Source of the DNA: Enterobacter cancerogenus
GTDB lineage: Bacteria > Pseudomonadota > Gammaproteobacteria > Enterobacterales > Enterobacteriaceae
NCBI RefSeq assembly: GCF_019047785.1
Contig: NZ_CP077290.1
Coordinates: forward strand, 868,001-932,000
Length of the DNA: 64,000 nucleotides
Direction: 5' to 3'
The position numbers and the translations under genes are program-made. Below the pieces are notes generated by a model. The model did no database searches, was not told the DNA's origin, and worked only from the letters and a program-made list of their open reading frames with translations. Shown here in pieces: positions 8,911 to 58,589 of this stretch (position 1 is the stretch's first letter; the number at the start of each line of letters is the position of its first letter).

Positions 8911-9092
8911 TTGCTTTAAAATTCGTAATAGCTAGATTGAAATCAGAAGTAAGCAATTCGTTTTATATTTACCTCCTGCTGGAGGTTATGGTCTGATTTT
9001 ACACACAGCAGTGCAACATCTGTCAGTACTTCTGGTGCCCTCTTTTAATTAAGAGGGCAGCTGCCAGGTGTCCTAAAAAGTGGGGTTTCATC

Positions 9093-14562: not shown

Positions 14563-14591
14563 TTGACGGCAGTTCGGCTTTTCCTTACATT
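14563..14591 (+). promoter_or_regulatory. Promoter of first tRNA-Ser(GGA)
   Basis: -35 TTGACG (14563-14568), 17-base spacer, -10 TACATT (14586-14591). A GC-rich discriminator (AGCGCCCG) follows, typical of stringently controlled stable-RNA promoters. Confidence 0.8.
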
Positions 14592-14625: not shown

Positions 14626-14713
14626 GGTGAGGTGTCCGAGTGGCTGAAGGAGCACGCCTGGAAAGTGTGTATACGGCAACGTATCGGGGGTTCGAATCCC
14701 CCCCTCACCGCCA
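14626..14713 (+). tRNA. serX: tRNA-Ser(GGA), copy 1
   Basis: An 88-base serine tRNA with encoded CCA. Acceptor GGTGAGG pairs with CCTCACC; the D-arm has GTCCGAGTGGCTGAAGGAGC; the anticodon loop CTGGAAA gives anticodon GGA (reads UCC/UCU). The long variable arm of class II serine tRNAs and the T-arm GGGGGTTCGAATCCCCC are present. It is next to ghrA like E. coli serX. Identical in sequence to copy 2 at 18393. Confidence 0.97.
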
Positions 14714-15678
14714 TATTTAAAGAAGAGCTCGCATGAAAATGCGGGCTTTTTTTTGCATGTTGCACACCACCGGGGGGATGAGAACCCCCGACCGGGGTTC
14801 GACAACGGGCGAGCGTAGCGAGTCAATCCCCCCCTCACCGCCATATTTAAGAAAGAGCTCGTACGAAAGTACGGGCTTTTTTTTGCATGTTGCACACTAC
14901 CGGGGGGATGAGAACCCCCGACCGGGGTTCGACAACGGGCGGCGGCCCGTTGGACAGACTGGGCGCGCAGCGAACAGGCTGCCCGCAGGGCGAGCGCAGC
15001 GAGTCAATCCCCCCCTCACCGCCATATTTAAAGAAGAGCCCGCATGAAAATGTGGGCTTTTTTTTTGCATATTGCACACCACCGGGGGGATGAGAACCCC
15101 CGACCGGGGTTCGACAACGGGCGGCAGCCCGTTGGACAGACTGGGCGCGTAGCGAACAGGCTGCCCGAAGGGCGAGCGCAGCGAGTCAATCCCCCCCTCG
15201 CCGTCATATTTGAAGAAGAGTTCGCATGAAAATGCGGGCTTTTTTTTGCATGTTGCACACTACCGGGGGGATGAGAACTCCCGACCGTGGTTCGACAACG
15301 GGCGGCAGCCCGTTGGACAGACTGGGCGCGTAGCGAACAGGCTGCCCGAAGGGCGAGCGCAGCGAGTCAATCCCCCCCTCACCGTCATATTTGAAGAAGA
15401 GTTCGCATGAAAATGCGGGCTTTTTTTTGCATGTTGCACACTACCGGGGGGATGAGAACTCCCGACCGTGGTTCGACAACGGGCGGCAGCCCGTTGGACA
15501 GACTGGGCGCGCAGCGAACAGGCTGCCCGCAGGGCGAGCGCAGCGAGTCAATCCCCCCCTCACCGCCATATTTAAAGAAGAGCTCGTACGAAAGTACGGG
15601 CTTTTTTTTTGCATGTTGAACTTTACCCTTGTGCGGTCTGGGCCCCTCACCCTAGCCCTCTCCCCAGGGGAGAGGGAA
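14714..15678 (+). repeat. Tandem tRNA-Ser 3'-end repeat array, locus 1
   Basis: Five units follow the tRNA: 14714-14843 (130 bases), 14844-15024 (181), 15025-15206 (182), 15207-15387 (181) and 15388-15568 (181). Each ends in the 3' end of the tRNA (AATCCCCCCCTCACCGCCA; CCGTCA in the units ending 15206 and 15387). Each begins with a terminator hairpin, at 14726, 14856, 15037, 15219 and 15400; a sixth hairpin at 15581 follows the last unit. A tail with a CCCTCACCC...GAGAGGG palindrome ends near 15678. The layout recalls the rtT repeats behind E. coli tyrT. No credible gene lies in it. Confidence 0.9.
14726..14754 (+). terminator. Terminator of tRNA-Ser copy 1
   Basis: Stem AGCTCGCAT / ATGCGGGCT with GAAA loop and eight T. 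The same hairpin recurs in each repeat unit with changed but pairing stems. Confidence 0.9.
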
Positions 15679-15681
15679 TTA

Positions 15682-16587
15682 TTACTCCTCCACCATACGT
15701 GCATACTCTTCGGTGAGAAAATCCACCAGCGTTCTGACGGATGGCAACAGCCCGCGCCGGGACGGATAAACCGCGTGGATCACTTCCCGTCTTGGTTCCC
15801 AGTCTTCCAGTACCCGAACGAGTTCACCGGAGGCAAGTTGCTCTTTCACCATCAAAATCGGCAATTGCACTACGCCCACACCCGCCATCGCCGCTTCGCG
15901 TAGCGCCAGCATGTCGGTGGTAATAAAGCGCGGCGTGAAATGGATCTCCGCTTTTGCGCCCTGCGGACCGCAGAGATCCCATTTATGTACCTGTTTACCG
16001 GCTCCCATGCTTAAGCCCGGCCAGTCGCTCAGCGCCGAGGGGGTAAGCGGTGCGCCCAGGCGTTCAACCAGCTGCCGCCCCGCCACCAGACAATGTCCCC
16101 TGTCGGCCAGCACCCTTAGAACCAGATCGCTGTCATCAAACGGACGCGGCCGCACGCGGATCGCCACATCAATCCCCTCGGCTACCGGATCGACCCGCCG
16201 ATTGGTTGCCTCCAGCTGCAGATTGATGCCGGGATAGCGCGCCAGAAAGCGTGCCAGCATTGGCCCTACGTGGACATGCAGCAACGTAACCGGACAGGTG
16301 ATCCTGACGATACCGCGCGGTTCGGCCTGCAGCGCAGCCACGGCCTCCTCTGCCGCCTCCGCTTCCACCAGCATTGCCTTACAGTGCTGATAGAACGTCT
16401 GCCCGACCTCCGTCACCGTAAACTGCCGCGTGGTACGCTGAATTAAGCGCACGCCAAGCCGCTCCTCCAGCTGAGCTATCCGGCGGCTCAGTTTCGATTT
16501 AGGCTCATCAAGCGCCCGCCCCGCTGCCGCAAATCCTCCGTGCTCGACCACTTTCACAAACCAGGCTAAATCGTTGAGATCCTGCAT
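15682..16587 (-). CDS. LysR-family transcriptional regulator
   Basis: A 301-residue LysR-type regulator: N-terminal winged helix (LAWFVKVVEHGGFAAAGRAL, KLSRRIAQLEERLGVRLIQRTTR) and a C-terminal substrate-binding domain. The start at 16587 (MQDLNDL) fits the family; the frame runs open to 16608. It is divergent from the pirin gene with about 110 bases between, the usual layout for a LysR protein controlling its neighbour. It most resembles the pirin-linked or YhcS/AaeR-like group; the effector is unknown. Confidence 0.88.
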   Translation of the reverse strand: MQDLNDLAWFVKVVEHGGFAAAGRALDEPKSKLSRRIAQLEERLGVRLIQRTTRQFTVTEVGQTFYQHCKAMLVEAEAAEEAVAALQAEPRGIVRITCPVTLLHVHVGPMLARFLARYPGINLQLEATNRRVDPVAEGIDVAIRVRPRPFDDSDLVLRVLADRGHCLVAGRQLVERLGAPLTPSALSDWPGLSMGAGKQVHKWDLCGPQGAKAEIHFTPRFITTDMLALREAAMAGVGVVQLPILMVKEQLASGELVRVLEDWEPRREVIHAVYPSRRGLLPSVRTLVDFLTEEYARMVEE

Positions 16588-16697
16588 ACCCTCTCCATCG
16601 TTCCACAAACGGAACAGTGAGTGTCATTTTCACGCTCTACCGGAATATTAGACCTGAATATAAGCTAATTACATCAACAGAACATCAGGAGTTCATC

Positions 16698-17567
16698 ATG
16701 AAACAGGTCACAGGCGTTTATACCGCACCGCGACAGCACTGGGTCGGCGACGGTTTTCCGGTTCGCTCGATGTTTTCTTATCAGACGCACGGTGAACCGC
16801 TCAGCCCGTTCCTGCTTTTGGACTACGCCGGTCCCTTTGCCTTCCCGGCTGACGGGGCAAAACGCGGCGTTGGTCAGCATCCTCATCGTGGATTTGAAAC
16901 GGTCACCATTGTCTATTCCGGCGAAGTGGAGCATCGCGATTCGACGGGACAAGCCGGCGTGATTGGACCGGGCGATGTGCAGTGGATGACGGCAGGCTCG
17001 GGCATTTTGCACGAAGAGTTTCACTCCAGCGCGTTCTCACAAAAAGGAGGGGAACTCAAAATGATGCAGCTGTGGGTCAACCTGCCTGCGAAAGACAAAA
17101 TGGCCGCACCCGGCTATCAAAGCATCACCAAAGAGACGATCCCGGTGGTGACGCTGCCGGACGACAGTGGAACGCTGCGGGTGATCGCAGGCCGCTACGG
17201 CGAGACTGACGGCCCGGCCCGGACGTTCTCCCCGCTGAACGTCTGGGATATGACGTTGAATCAGGGAAGCCACCACACCTTCCATCAGCCCGAAGGCTGG
17301 AGCACAGCGCTTGTGGTGCTGGAAGGAAGCGTCACGGTGAACGGCACCGCCCAGGCGGGTGAAGCGCAGCTGGTGGTGCTCAGCCAGCAAGGTGACACCG
17401 TCCACCTGGAAGCCAACAGCGATACCAAAGTGCTGCTGATGGCGGGCGAACCGCTGAACGAGCCGATCGTCGGTTACGGCCCGTTTGTGATGAACAGTAA
17501 AACCGAAATCGCAGAAGCTATCCGTGATTTCAACTCAGGCCGTTTTGGCCAGATCCTCTCGTCATAA
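16698..17567 (+). CDS. Pirin-family cupin protein
   Basis: A 289-residue bicupin of the pirin/YhaK/YhhW type, whose members bind Fe and in some cases have quercetin 2,3-dioxygenase activity. Metal-binding residues are visible: [10 protein letters not shown], with two His, and LHEEFHSS, with His and Glu. Start 16698 has CAGGAG in front; the longer frame to 16617 is not supported. It forms a likely two-gene operon with the hydrolase 11 bases downstream, under the divergent LysR regulator. Confidence 0.9.
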
Positions 17568-17578
17568 AGGAGAAGAAC

Positions 17579-18256
17579 ATGTCTACACCTGCAAATTTTA
17601 ACGGTTCCCGCCCGGTCATTGATGCGAATGATGCGGTCATGCTGCTTATCGATCATCAGAGCGGGCTGTTCCAGACCGTTGGCGACATGCCTATGCCGGA
17701 ACTGCGCGCCCGTGCGGCAGCACTGGCAAAAATCGCAACGCTTGCGCAGATCCCGGTGATTACCACTGCATCCGTTCCGCAGGGGCCAAACGGACCGCTG
17801 ATCCCGGAGATCCACGCCAACGCGCCGCACGCCCAGTACGTAGCCCGAAAAGGTGAGATTAACGCCTGGGATAACCCGGAGTTTGTGGCGGCGGTAAAAG
17901 CCACCGGGCGTAAAACGCTGATTATTGCCGGGACCATCACCAGCGTCTGCATGGCGTTCCCATCCATCAGCGCGGTGGCGGACGGCTATAAAGTGTTTGC
18001 GGTGATTGATGCCTCTGGCACCTACAGCAAAATGGCGCAGGAGATCACCCTGGCCCGTGTGGTTCAGGCGGGCGTTGTGCCAATGGATACCGCTGCCGTG
18101 GCCTCCGAGATCCAGCGGACATGGAATCGTGAAGACGCTGCACAGTGGGCTGAGGTTTATACGCATATCTTCCCGGCCTATCAGCTGTTGATCGAAAGCT
18201 ACGGTAAGGCGCAGGAAGTCGTGAAAAACGGCGAAATGCTCGATTCACAGCGTTAA
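17579..18256 (+). CDS. Isochorismatase-family hydrolase (YcaC-like)
   Basis: A 225-residue cysteine hydrolase of the isochorismatase superfamily. The Asp-Lys-Cys triad is apparent: D25 (LIDHQSGLF), K91 (ARKGEINAW) and C124 (TSVCMAFP). It resembles YcaC, whose substrate is unknown. AAAGGAG precedes the ATG. Together with the pirin it may act on a small aromatic or amide compound; that is inference from family and operon only. Confidence 0.88.
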
Positions 18257-18392: not shown

Positions 18393-18480
18393 GGTGAGGT
18401 GTCCGAGTGGCTGAAGGAGCACGCCTGGAAAGTGTGTATACGGCAACGTATCGGGGGTTCGAATCCCCCCCTCACCGCCA
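18393..18480 (+). tRNA. tRNA-Ser(GGA), copy 2
   Basis: An 88-base serine tRNA, base for base the same as copy 1 at 14626, including the encoded CCA and GGA anticodon. It has its own promoter and terminator (18493-18520). E. coli has one serX at this map position plus serW elsewhere, so this looks like a local duplicate. Confidence 0.97.
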
Positions 18481-18898
18481 TATTTAAAGAAGAGCTCGTA
18501 CGAAAGTACGGGCTTTTTTTGCATGTTGCACACCACCGGGGGGATGAGAACTCCCGACCGGGGTTCGACAACGGGCGGCAGCCCGTTGGACAGACTGGGC
18601 GCGCAGCGAACAGGCTGCCCGAAGGGCGAGCGCAGCGAGTCAATCCCCCCTCACCGCCATATTTAAAGAAGAGCTCGTACGAAAGTACGGGCTTTTTTTT
18701 CGCATGTTGCACACCAACGGGGGGATGAGAACCCCCGACCGGGGTTCGACAACGGGCGAGCGCAGCGAGTCAATCCCCCCCTCACCGCCATATTTAAGAA
18801 AGAGCTCGCATGAAAATGCGGGCTTTTTTTTGCATGTTGCACTTCACCCTTGTGCGGTCTGGGCCCCTCACCCTAACCCTCTCCCCAAGGGAGAGGGA
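18481..18898 (+). repeat. Tandem tRNA-Ser 3'-end repeat array, locus 2
   Basis: Two units follow tRNA copy 2: 18481-18659 (179 bases) and 18660-18790 (131 bases). Each ends with the tRNA 3' end and CCA. Terminator hairpins start at 18493, 18672 and 18803. The tail with the CCCTCACCC...GAGAGGG palindrome (to about 18898) closely matches the tail of locus 1, so the duplicated block includes tRNA, repeats and tail. Confidence 0.9.
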
Positions 18899-18930
18899 AA
18901 ACGTCCTAACCTTTGGTAAAACCGCACCGG

Positions 18931-19024: not shown

Positions 19025-19813
19025 TCAGTAGTACGCCTGCAGCGTTCGCTGGCACAGCGCCGAACGCACGCAGTCATCTTTGGTAAAGCGTACCACCCCA
19101 ATCATCTCGTCTTCTTCAAAACGAGCCATGGCGTCACTCAGGCCGGACTTGACGCCCGACGGCAGGTCGCACTGGGTGATATCGCCATTGACGATGACCG
19201 TCACGTTCTCCCCGAGGCGCGTTAAAAACATCTTCATTTGCGCAGCGGTCACGTTCTGAGCCTCGTCAAGGATCACGACCGCATTTTCAAATGTACGTCC
19301 GCGCATATAGGCGAACGGCGCGATTTCCACCTTGCCAATCTCTGGCCGCAGGCAGTACTGCATAAAGGATGCGCCCAGTCGCTTCACCAGCACGTCATAG
19401 ACGGGCCTGAAGTAGGGAGCAAACTTCTCTGAGATATCTCCGGGTAAGAAACCGAGATCTTCATCAGCCTGCAGTACCGGACGGGTGACAATAATTCTGT
19501 CCACGTCCTTATGGATCAGCGCCTCTGCCGCTTTGGCCGCGCTAATCCAGGTTTTCCCGCATCCGGCTTCACCGGTTGCAAAGATGAGCTGTTTACTCTC
19601 GATAGCATTCAGGTAGTGCGCCTGAGCTTCATTCCGCGCCACAATTGGGGAAGTATCACGGCAGTCCCGCGCCATGCCAATTGCTTCTACGCCACTCATC
19701 TGCACAAGCGAGGTGACCGACTCTTCTTCACGCTGTTTATGACTACGTGAATCCCGTCTCAGCACACGTTTTGCTTCGCGACGAGCTTTGATCACTGCTT
19801 TTTGTCTTCCCAT
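19025..19813 (-). CDS. phoH: PhoH phosphate-starvation ATPase
   Basis: A cytoplasmic P-loop ATPase of the PhoH family, induced by phosphate starvation in E. coli; some PhoH proteins are RNA helicase-like. Walker A GEAGCGKT at about 81-88, Walker B VVILDEAQN about 90 residues later. I place the start at ATG 19813 (262 residues), with AAGGTG six bases before it. The frame stays open to ATG 20089 (354 residues, the length given to E. coli PhoH), but that extension is low in recognisable structure. It lies next to efeUOB, as in E. coli. Confidence 0.9.
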   Translation of the reverse strand: MGRQKAVIKARREAKRVLRRDSRSHKQREEESVTSLVQMSGVEAIGMARDCRDTSPIVARNEAQAHYLNAIESKQLIFATGEAGCGKTWISAAKAAEALIHKDVDRIIVTRPVLQADEDLGFLPGDISEKFAPYFRPVYDVLVKRLGASFMQYCLRPEIGKVEIAPFAYMRGRTFENAVVILDEAQNVTAAQMKMFLTRLGENVTVIVNGDITQCDLPSGVKSGLSDAMARFEEDEMIGVVRFTKDDCVRSALCQRTLQAYY

Positions 19814-20312
19814 GGATAGCACCTTGAGTTGTTGGTATTCATCACACGCGCCAGCGTCGGCACGATTATGCGCACAAACATCAGAGGGTTGGCTTCCTTG
19901 TAAGCCATTGCTTGCTTTGCCGGATGACGACACAAAACGGCTACGCGCACCATTTTGCACGTCGGTAGTAAGAGGGTGTTGCGTTGAGGGGGATAAATCT
20001 GTAGTGAAAAGATCGCTGCCGGAGTCAGAGCCTCCGCGCCGGGTGCTGCGGGTGTTACGTTTACCTTGTCCAGTACAGGACGCTACCATTCGCGATCTCC
20101 ATAGTGAATCAGTTTCACTGCCGGGAACTACCGCTGTCTTATCTTAAGTACATCAGGGATTATCATAAATGCAACATTTATTTTACCATAATGCAACTTT
20201 TAAGACTGTACCTGCAGTGGATTCAGTCTCATATAGAAATATTACAGAAAAATAACAACAAGATAGTCATCGCGAAAAATAATGTCCCTGCGAACAATCG
20301 CAGGGACGATTA
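19814..20312. other. phoH upstream region
   Basis: About 500 bases between the phoH start and the efeB stop. It holds the in-frame phoH extension (to 20089), an AT-rich stretch (20160-20280) and the efe terminator. I could not place a convincing Pho box by eye. Confidence 0.5.
20270..20307 (-). terminator. Terminator after efeUOB
   Basis: Ten-base stem GTCCCTGCGA / TCGCAGGGAC with a four-base loop, followed by ATTATTTTT on the minus strand, 6 bases past the efeB stop. Confidence 0.88.
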
Positions 20313-47844: not shown

Positions 47845-47990
47845 GTGAACAATCAACGCCTCTACGGAGGCGTTATTAAACCGCACATCAATCATCTTAA
47901 AAAATATATTCTTTTAAACGCTTCATAAACGTCATTTAAATTCCACAGCACGCCGTTAAAAAATGCGTATTATTCCCCTCGATTTACAAC

Positions 47991-48152
47991 GATCTCGTTA
48001 TGGCGAGGCTCCTGTACAAATACACGTTATCGCTCTGGTGGGTTCGAGAGAACCGGCACAGGGTAAAACAGGCACTGTCGAATCAAGGCTTTGTCAGTAT
48101 AACTTCCCTTGCGGGATACGGTGTACAGTGCTGAACCCAGGACGTGGGGATC
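47991..48152 (+). promoter_or_regulatory. M-box (ykoK) magnesium riboswitch
   Basis: The leader of the MgtE-type gene contains GCGAGGCTCCTGTACAAATA and then CACGTTATCGCTCTGG, close to the M-box core (GGTGAGGCTCCTATACAAAC...ACGCTACTGCCC). GATCTC (47991-47996) can pair with GGGATC (48147-48152) to close a P1 stem around about 160 bases, the normal M-box size. Past it, ATCTCT (48150) could pair instead with AGAGAT (48187) before a T-rich stretch, a possible switch; I could not settle the mechanism by eye. Confidence 0.8.
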
Positions 48153-48216
48153 TCTTCTTCGACATGCCCTGTCTTGCTCGCCCCTGAGAGATTTTATTAT
48201 TCAAAGGGAATTCACT

Positions 48217-58292: not shown

Positions 58293-58380
58293 TGGCGGAA
58301 GCGTAGAGATTCGAACTCTAGAACCCTTTCGGGTCGCCGGTTTTCAAGACCGGTGCCTTCAACCGCTCGGCCACGCTTCC
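58293..58380 (-). tRNA. tRNA-Ser(UGA), downstream copy
   Basis: An 88-base serine tRNA on the minus strand with encoded CCA. Acceptor GGAAGCG, long variable arm, anticodon loop CTTGAAA giving UGA (reads UCA/UCG). It is identical to the other copy and has its own promoter (-35 TTTACA 58416-58421, -10 TATAGT 58393-58398, 17-base spacer). Confidence 0.96.
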
Positions 58381-58458
58381 AAAGTGAGGCGCACTATAAA
58401 CATCTATTAGCGCGTTGTAAAGCAACATTTTTTCTATTTTTCGATTCAGGGTCAAAAA

Positions 58459-58497
58459 AGCAAAAAGCCCCGCGATATTGCTATCGCAGGGCTTTCA
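58459..58497 (-). terminator. Terminator of second tRNA-Ser(UGA)
   Basis: Stem GCCC(C)GCGATA / TATCGC(A)GGGC with TTGC loop. It is the duplicate of 58253-58287, with paired base changes that keep the stem. Confidence 0.82.
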
Positions 58498-58501
58498 AAT
58501 T

Positions 58502-58589
58502 TGGCGGAAGCGTAGAGATTCGAACTCTAGAACCCTTTCGGGTCGCCGGTTTTCAAGACCGGTGCCTTCAACCGCTCGGCCACGCTTCC
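58502..58589 (-). tRNA. serT: tRNA-Ser(UGA), upstream copy (serT position)
   Basis: An 88-base serine tRNA identical to the copy 209 bases away, anticodon UGA, CCA encoded. Promoter -35 TTTACA (58625-58630), 17-base spacer, -10 TATAGT (58602-58607). E. coli has one serT at this place beside yccA. Confidence 0.96.

Follow-up and report, generated by a model that had tools for sequence, protein, structure and literature searches.

An array of RtT-type tRNA-linked repeats behind tRNA-Ser(GGA) at the serX position of Enterobacter cancerogenus

Repeats known as tRNA-linked repeats (TLRs; Rudd 1999) have been described in E. coli K-12, and the available text of PMC8144298, the only paper found to treat the TLR family as such in an open-licence literature search, traces the family to 1978 and gives it no known function. 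By that account TLRs lie directly downstream of a tRNA or rRNA gene, number one to five units per locus, and have as their hallmark a 3′ end whose last 18-19 bp repeat exactly those of the upstream gene; K-12 holds a total of 22 at ten loci, three of them in rRNA operons (PMC8144298). The TLRs of the rRNA operons, RrA, RrB and RrF, are located between two terminators, and a stringent-response claim for tyrT was retracted (PMC8144298). The corresponding Rfam family is RtT (RF00391), rttR of E. coli tyrT. In the parts available of three further papers, a tandem GA motif is noted in RtT RNA (PMC7657543), rtT is likened to attenuator-like BIME repeats (PMC2965389), and a 175-bp rtT VNTR is listed in Salmonella (PMC2658671). 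Another RNA released from behind a tRNA, 3′ETS-leuZ, acts as a sponge for RyhB and RybB (PMC8144298); it is set beside the present array by description only.

The window analysed here, a stretch of 64,000 nt from E. cancerogenus (NZ_CP077290.1, positions 868,001 to 932,000), carries two arrays of such units. An earlier note had singled out the larger as a candidate for an undescribed RNA element. Judged by sequence, it is instead a TLR array, or Rfam RtT array, and is thereby placed in a decades-old and common family, which removes a false lead for a new element. Contributed here are the antisense T-arm in each unit, a covarying helix, and inheritance in place with the tRNA. No priority is claimed for them; the antisense T-arm has no mention in the available text of PMC8144298.

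Anatomy and family of the two arrays

The larger array follows a called tRNA-Ser(GGA) gene at 14626..14713 on the forward strand, as are all features of both arrays. The gene occupies the serX position adjoining ghrA, the neighbour being identified by similarity and K-12 gene order. A sigma-70-like promoter candidate for it (TTGACG, 17 nt, TACATT) lies at 14563..14591; one was found against a chance expectation of 0.6, which is weak alone, and its location suits the tRNA gene. The five tandem units reported behind this tRNA, each with a terminator hairpin, are confirmed, with lengths of 130, 181, 182, 181 and 181 nt. The extent previously given, 14626..15678, holds at its start; the array with its last terminator ends near 15617, and 15617-15678 belongs to other flanking sequence. 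Tandem Repeats Finder (TRF) scores of 1389-1419 over the array, together with repeat families of four to five copies, place it far beyond chance.

Every unit starts with the tRNA 3′ flank, that is TATTT, then an 8-pair hairpin with a GAAA loop, then a T run. Next come an antisense T-arm (an inverted copy) and a half copy of the T-arm, which reads GGGGTTCGA except in units 4 and 5, where it is GTGGTTCGA. A core made up of small hairpins, shortened in unit 1 according to folds, leads to the final tail, which copies tRNA residues 59-76, the last 18 nt. Unit 1 (14714..14843) is the short one, its core partly absent, with a terminator stem at 14727-14746 and its T run, the antisense T-arm at 14772-14791 and the tail at 14826-14843; its match to the RtT model (14757-14843) scores 34.4 bits, below the gathering score of 45. 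Unit 2 (14844..15024) has its terminator stem at 14857-14876, antisense T-arm at 14902-14921 and tail at 15007-15024, and scores 43.5 bits, again below gathering. Units 3 (15025..15206; terminator stem 15038-15057, antisense T-arm 15084-15103) and 4 (15207..15387; terminator stem 15220-15239) score above it, at 46.2 and 45.4 bits. Unit 5 (15388..15568; terminator stem 15401-15420, tail 15551-15568) scores 43.4 bits, below it. A further copy of the tRNA 3′ flank (15569..15617), with its stem at 15582-15601 and a T run from 15602, supplies the sixth such terminator hairpin and closes the array. A simple terminator scan listed five of the six array hairpins in reverse-strand form only.

All five units were said to end in the tRNA 3′ end with CCA. 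The tail copy is indeed present in all five, at 18/18 identity in units 1, 2 and 5, 17/18 in unit 4 and 16/18 in unit 3, but CCA is lost in units 3 and 4, which end in GTCA; the other three end in GCCA. The antisense T-arm, which the earlier note did not record, is a stretch of 20 nt that in units 1-3 is 90% complementary to tRNA positions 14684-14703, and is slightly altered in units 4 and 5.

Also missing from the earlier account were two further units behind a second tRNA-Ser(GGA) (18393..18480). The first of these (18481..18659) is 179 nt long, with a tail one C shorter, and scores 44.5 bits, just below gathering; the second is a short unit of 131 nt (18660..18790) scoring 35.6 bits, also below. 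The short unit thus comes first in the serX array (14714-14843) and last in the second array (18660-18790), each being about 50 nt below its neighbours. A similar hairpin-like stretch, CCCTCACCCTA-CCCTCTCCCC, is seen 3′ of both arrays, at 15640-15678 and 18861-18900. Between the two tRNA genes, at 15682-18256, lie what we take from their translations to be LysR-type regulator, pirin-like and isochorismatase-like genes. The two tRNA-Ser(GGA) genes both bear arrays, with 3′ flanks that resemble each other, and it looks as though a tRNA gene had been duplicated together with its array.

The likeness to the rtT repeats of tyrT that was first proposed is right, and it is more than a likeness. The RtT covariance model matches all seven window units end to end, with left arm and tail in common, and the GCCCGNAGGGC hairpin is shared by the full-length units; two of the seven reach the gathering score (46.2 and 45.4 bits) and the others score 34.4-44.5. 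The middle of the serine core does not align to the model. As in the description of TLRs (PMC8144298, available text), the window units lie directly behind a tRNA gene, in groups of five and two per locus, with tails that copy the upstream tRNA, the 18-bp identity being exact in units 1, 2 and 5. The corresponding K-12 locus is serX, where three units have tails 181 nt apart. Against the TLRs of K-12, the window has two loci, of five and two units, behind two tRNA-Ser(GGA) genes, with two units about 50 nt short and two tails without CCA. Of nine K-12 tRNA loci viewed, six had units, 17 in all by our own count, compared with 22 TLRs at ten loci in the available text of PMC8144298. At serX of E. 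coli 504237, three units are labelled 'RtT sRNA' in the RefSeq annotation and are interrupted by an IS66-type insertion. The RtT matches, this RefSeq label and the TLR description in PMC8144298 together lead us to reject the claim of an undescribed element. Nor is the kind tied to a tyrosine tRNA, as had been supposed, since the serX, lys, arg and proK loci of K-12 bear such units. The Pseudomonas repeat R178, considered as possibly of the same kind, was set aside, the available part of PMC2718517 giving no tRNA link for it.

RrA, RrB and RrF are assigned to the same family (PMC8144298, available text), and a similar core is found in the rrnB T1-T2 interval. Their tail copies the 5S rRNA end and they bind CsrA, whereas the window array stands at a tRNA-Ser locus and so lies outside their type. 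In E. coli rrnB (around position 2379 of the stretch viewed, L235), the T1-T2 interval holds a TLR-like core and repeats the AACTGCCAGGCATCAAAT found at the 5S end, in agreement with that text. The last 18 nt of annotated rrfB found a best tail copy of 13/18, and thus none by a rule of 15 of 18. The 5S copy is missed by this rule because the common stretch extends beyond the annotated gene end.

Spread, copy number and inheritance

In the same genome, 14 RtT matches (E up to 10) were obtained among the 150 of 265 first-look candidates that were scored. All lie at seven loci behind tRNA genes (Ser twice, Tyr, Pro, Lys twice, Arg), and seven of them are in the window. The exact core motif GGCCCGAAGGGCNAG occurs six times in this genome, each time inside a unit behind a tRNA. 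Under strict filters, and with the own genome counted in each search, 68 of 119 genomes of the family gave RtT matches (E up to 0.01), as did 39 of 197 in an order sample (E up to 0.001; nine of the 39 from the own family) and 66 of 369 in a class sample (E up to 0.001). Among 14 named controls, E. coli was the sole match in the family, order and class searches; at E up to 10 four matched, E. coli alone above the cut-off. Distant BLAST matches appeared in 5375 of 5426 E. coli genomes, a figure that is no count of arrays because the matches include the tRNA gene itself. In a plasmid collection 15 records matched, four of them chromosome-sized (4.8-5.4 Mb).

Independently of the Rfam tail, 407 CCA-bearing tRNA genes, in stretches chosen for RtT hits together with K-12 serX, were scanned for copies of their tails downstream at 15/18 or better; the underlying locus sample comprised up to 30 loci per search and 100 chosen stretches. 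It found 281 copies, or 260 without duplicates, from 104 genomes, of which 204 were exact. A core hairpin of the CCC-GGG type is present in 241 of the 260; in the Gammaproteobacteria sampled, the tRNAs ahead of these represent seven amino acids and 14 anticodons. The 19 copies dropped include mislabelled ones (antisense Arg calls, Ala) as well as some genuine units whose cores are altered.

Conservation of the array behind serX, a check set out in the earlier note, is mixed. Among the best 80 of 164 ghrA-serX loci, four are without a tRNA-Ser and the remaining 76 hold 87 tRNA-Ser genes. Arrays occur at 37 of these 76 loci, and 48 of the 87 genes have no unit, 22 have one, 13 two, two three and two four, so that copy number at the site ranges from 0 to 4 in the relatives; tRNA genes were not counted as units, and eight of the 48 unit-less genes had less than 190 nt left to search. 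At these loci 42 of 62 tails are exact. Another serine tail type, ATCCCCGCC.., is copied exactly by its own units in 12 of 12 cases, and for ACCCCTCTC.. three copies are at 17/18.

Core similarity was compared over 107 representative family cores. Its mean was 0.760 for the same tRNA in different genomes, 0.695 for different tRNAs in the same genome, and 0.696 where both differed, and the nearest neighbour of a core lay behind the same tRNA in 98 of 107. As the cores group by tRNA and not by genome, the units are inherited in place with the tRNA, with no sign of jumping. Similarity continues beyond CCA, at 8.93 of 12 nt against 3.95 in random pairs. Identity ends at CCA in 22 of 180 first units, and recombination in those would therefore rest on 18 bp.

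Tails, left arms and helices

The tails follow their host tRNA closely. Of 100 RtT hits checked, several of which derive from one array and are therefore not independent, 92 had a called upstream tRNA; the tail matched it at 18/18 in 70 of the 92, and the own tRNA outscored every other-amino-acid tail of the set in 83. The 22 imperfect tails include two misassigned ones (L003 and L084, whose hits overlap their own tRNA-Lys) and several truncated ones (e.g., L077, L096, L100 and L123), and of the eight hits without an upstream tRNA, L110 and L119 overlap a tRNA, L078, L106 and L124 lie near a contig start and L086 beside Ns. Wherever the tails of an isoacceptor vary from genome to genome, the base in the unit agrees with its own tRNA in 1362 comparisons, with the other tRNA in seven and with neither in 27; being pairwise, these counts do not number separate events, and the 15/18 rule biases them toward the own base. 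Tracking of the tRNA is as good in the acceptor part of the tail, which is unpaired within the unit, as in the paired part. Mismatches over the 241 units are spread over all 18 positions, with 4, 3 and 11 at the last three against 1-9 elsewhere, as copying predicts. Tails are exact in 160 of 194 first units, 34 of 50 second units and 10 of 16 later ones. In the acceptor part, 15 of 30 mismatches still pair with the tRNA 5′ strand, compared with 7.7 expected; this excess is not used here, since a C-to-T change bias could produce the same.

The left arm forms a helix with the first 8 nt of the tail. This helix shows covariation, with 81.9% of cells paired in 88 units against a maximum of 74.3% in 300 shuffles. 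RNAalifold on the 88 aligned units gave only 4 pairs (−4.6 kcal/mol), probably on account of gaps in the variable core. Five helices, picked out by hand, were then scored by counting pairs against the 300 shuffles. Three of the five hand-named helices exceed all shuffles. The two that do not are the CCCG-AGGG hairpin, which is nearly invariant, and the last hairpin, which is 31.6% paired and probably misaligned. The left arm is also antisense to tRNA residues 47-66, with at least 16 of 20 positions paired in 104 of 149 units against two of 149 shuffled. Units behind Arg(acg) are without the antisense half (median 12/20 in six). In three units behind Ser tRNAs outside the order (L218, L219 and L111), the antisense is of the GGATTC type through the T-loop complement, not GGATGAGAA.

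These regularities, namely tail and left arm that follow the own tRNA, inheritance in place and frequent absence at serX, provide a family frame for testing, and the three units behind serX make E. coli K-12 a ready laboratory model.

Possible roles of the arrays

The explanation we prefer, with a moderate degree of confidence, is that of a recombination-prone array reached only by leaky read-through, which would offer backup termination and structured, processed RNAs without an essential role. Transcription would end mostly at the first terminator, and each further unit would add one more; rare read-through transcripts may fold into structured RNAs that tRNA 3′-processing enzymes would cut loose. 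Units would be gained and lost through recombination between the repeated tail-plus-terminator segments. Because any recombination across an altered tail would harm the tRNA, tails would remain identical to it, and the left arm would follow through selection for its helix. The array is probably tolerated, and useful only as backup termination, a role already suggested for it that fits the sequence at the serX array. The anatomy, the family membership, the tracking of tail and left arm and the variation in copy number, on which this explanation draws, are all read directly from the sequence.

Several observations sit less easily with a tolerated array. Recombination between tail-plus-terminator repeats fits most of the evolutionary data, but not the higher exactness of first units; the fall in exactness from first to later units is unexpected under plain copying and would suit a role of the first unit. 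Likewise, covarying helices over several families speak for an RNA function, and Northern signals are reported, in available texts, for RtT RNAs in Actinobacillus (PMC4986893) and for the rRNA-operon TLRs of E. coli (PMC8144298). Backup termination is not general, because by our terminator rule none of 62 Tyr first units has a terminator separating it from the tRNA. The tail copy of RrB has been suggested to serve RNase E cleavage (PMC8144298, available text), which would account for a shared signal, but not for acceptor letters that match each individual tRNA.

Alternatively, the units might be trans-acting sRNAs, cut from read-through RNA by tRNA-processing enzymes, that would bind partners such as CsrA or Hfq and signal tRNA or rRNA transcription, a role proposed for RrA, RrB and RrF. 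These three yield a defined RNA of 173 nt on processing and bind both CsrA and Hfq (PMC8144298, available text), the core in the rrnB T1-T2 interval is similar, and the covarying helices span several families. However, the same text gives predicted CsrA-binding scores below 0.01 for all 19 tRNA-operon TLRs, modest phenotypes for RrA, RrB and RrF, and the retraction at tyrT noted above (PMC8144298), and 48 of the 87 tRNA-Ser genes of relatives do without a serX array. On balance a regulatory role of this kind seems unlikely.

A read-through switch is a testable idea, not a result, and we regard it as improbable. Most units hold full replacement strands for the tRNA 3′ domain, namely the antisense T-arm, the T-stem 5′ half, and the T-stem 3′ half with acceptor and CCA. 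The unit's antisense T-arm could capture the tRNA T-arm while the unit tail takes the place of the tRNA 3′ strand opposite the 5′ acceptor strand. The tRNA would then be refolded, would carry the core in its T-loop, and would be discarded or otherwise processed. If true, this would account for the agreement of all 18 nt of the tail with the host tRNA across Gammaproteobacteria, even where the tail is unpaired in the unit, and for the left arm being antisense to the T-arm (104 of 149 units against two of 149 shuffled). The tails are most exact in first units, as would also suit it. At sites where T-stem and half copy differ, the left arm fits the tRNA only at 129, the half copy only at 20, both at 34 and neither at nine (125 tRNA-only against 21 half-copy-only under another window rule), although residue 49 makes up 94 of the 129 and, being G in every Tyr, Lys, Pro and Ser tRNA tabulated, may be constant, not tracking. 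The Arg(acg) units, moreover, are without the antisense half, and the tRNA is made first and can fold first.

Folding gives little support to such a switch, since the swap is also chosen with the left part shuffled. Minimum free energy (MFE) folds place the 5′ acceptor strand on the unit tail in 144 of 149 units, but this preference was dropped as evidence because shuffling the left part changed little: the swap was favoured in 137 of 141 shuffled and 141 of 141 real units, and in another run of 132 units in 129 shuffled and 128 real. After the multiloop terms had been corrected by hand for the 141-unit comparison, 121 shuffled and 134 real units favoured it, and the preference exceeded that of the left-part-shuffled unit in 96 of 141.

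It had also been proposed that mature-like CCA ends of the units titrate RNases or CCA-binding factors, which we consider very improbable. CCA is kept in 224 of 241 tails, tails that had been preselected at 15/18 or better. Against this, two of the five serX tails (units 3 and 4) end in GTCA, the last three positions mismatch as readily as the others across the 241 units, and read-through RNA would be a minority beside the tRNAs themselves. The similar cores behind tRNAs of seven amino acids would fit a mobile element that inserts at tRNA 3′ ends and duplicates the end as it does so, but this reading was rejected as scarcely credible on the grouping of cores by tRNA across genomes (0.760) over genome (0.695) and on the lack of any match in 50,697 phage records at E 1e-5, the exact core motif moreover lying only in units behind tRNAs in the own genome (6/6).

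Elsewhere in the window, a tandem pair of tRNA-Ser(TGA) genes (58293-58589) has a 209-nt period and a terminator-like hairpin behind each gene, without an RtT match. A match to Rfam Ysr251, a Yersinia sRNA, lies at 19030-19223, antisense inside a minus-strand ORF (19025-20089) that, by E. coli gene order, we take to be PhoH-like. Other Rfam matches in the window are to the ES056 sRNA and the M-box magnesium riboswitch (8945-9040 and 47987-48156).
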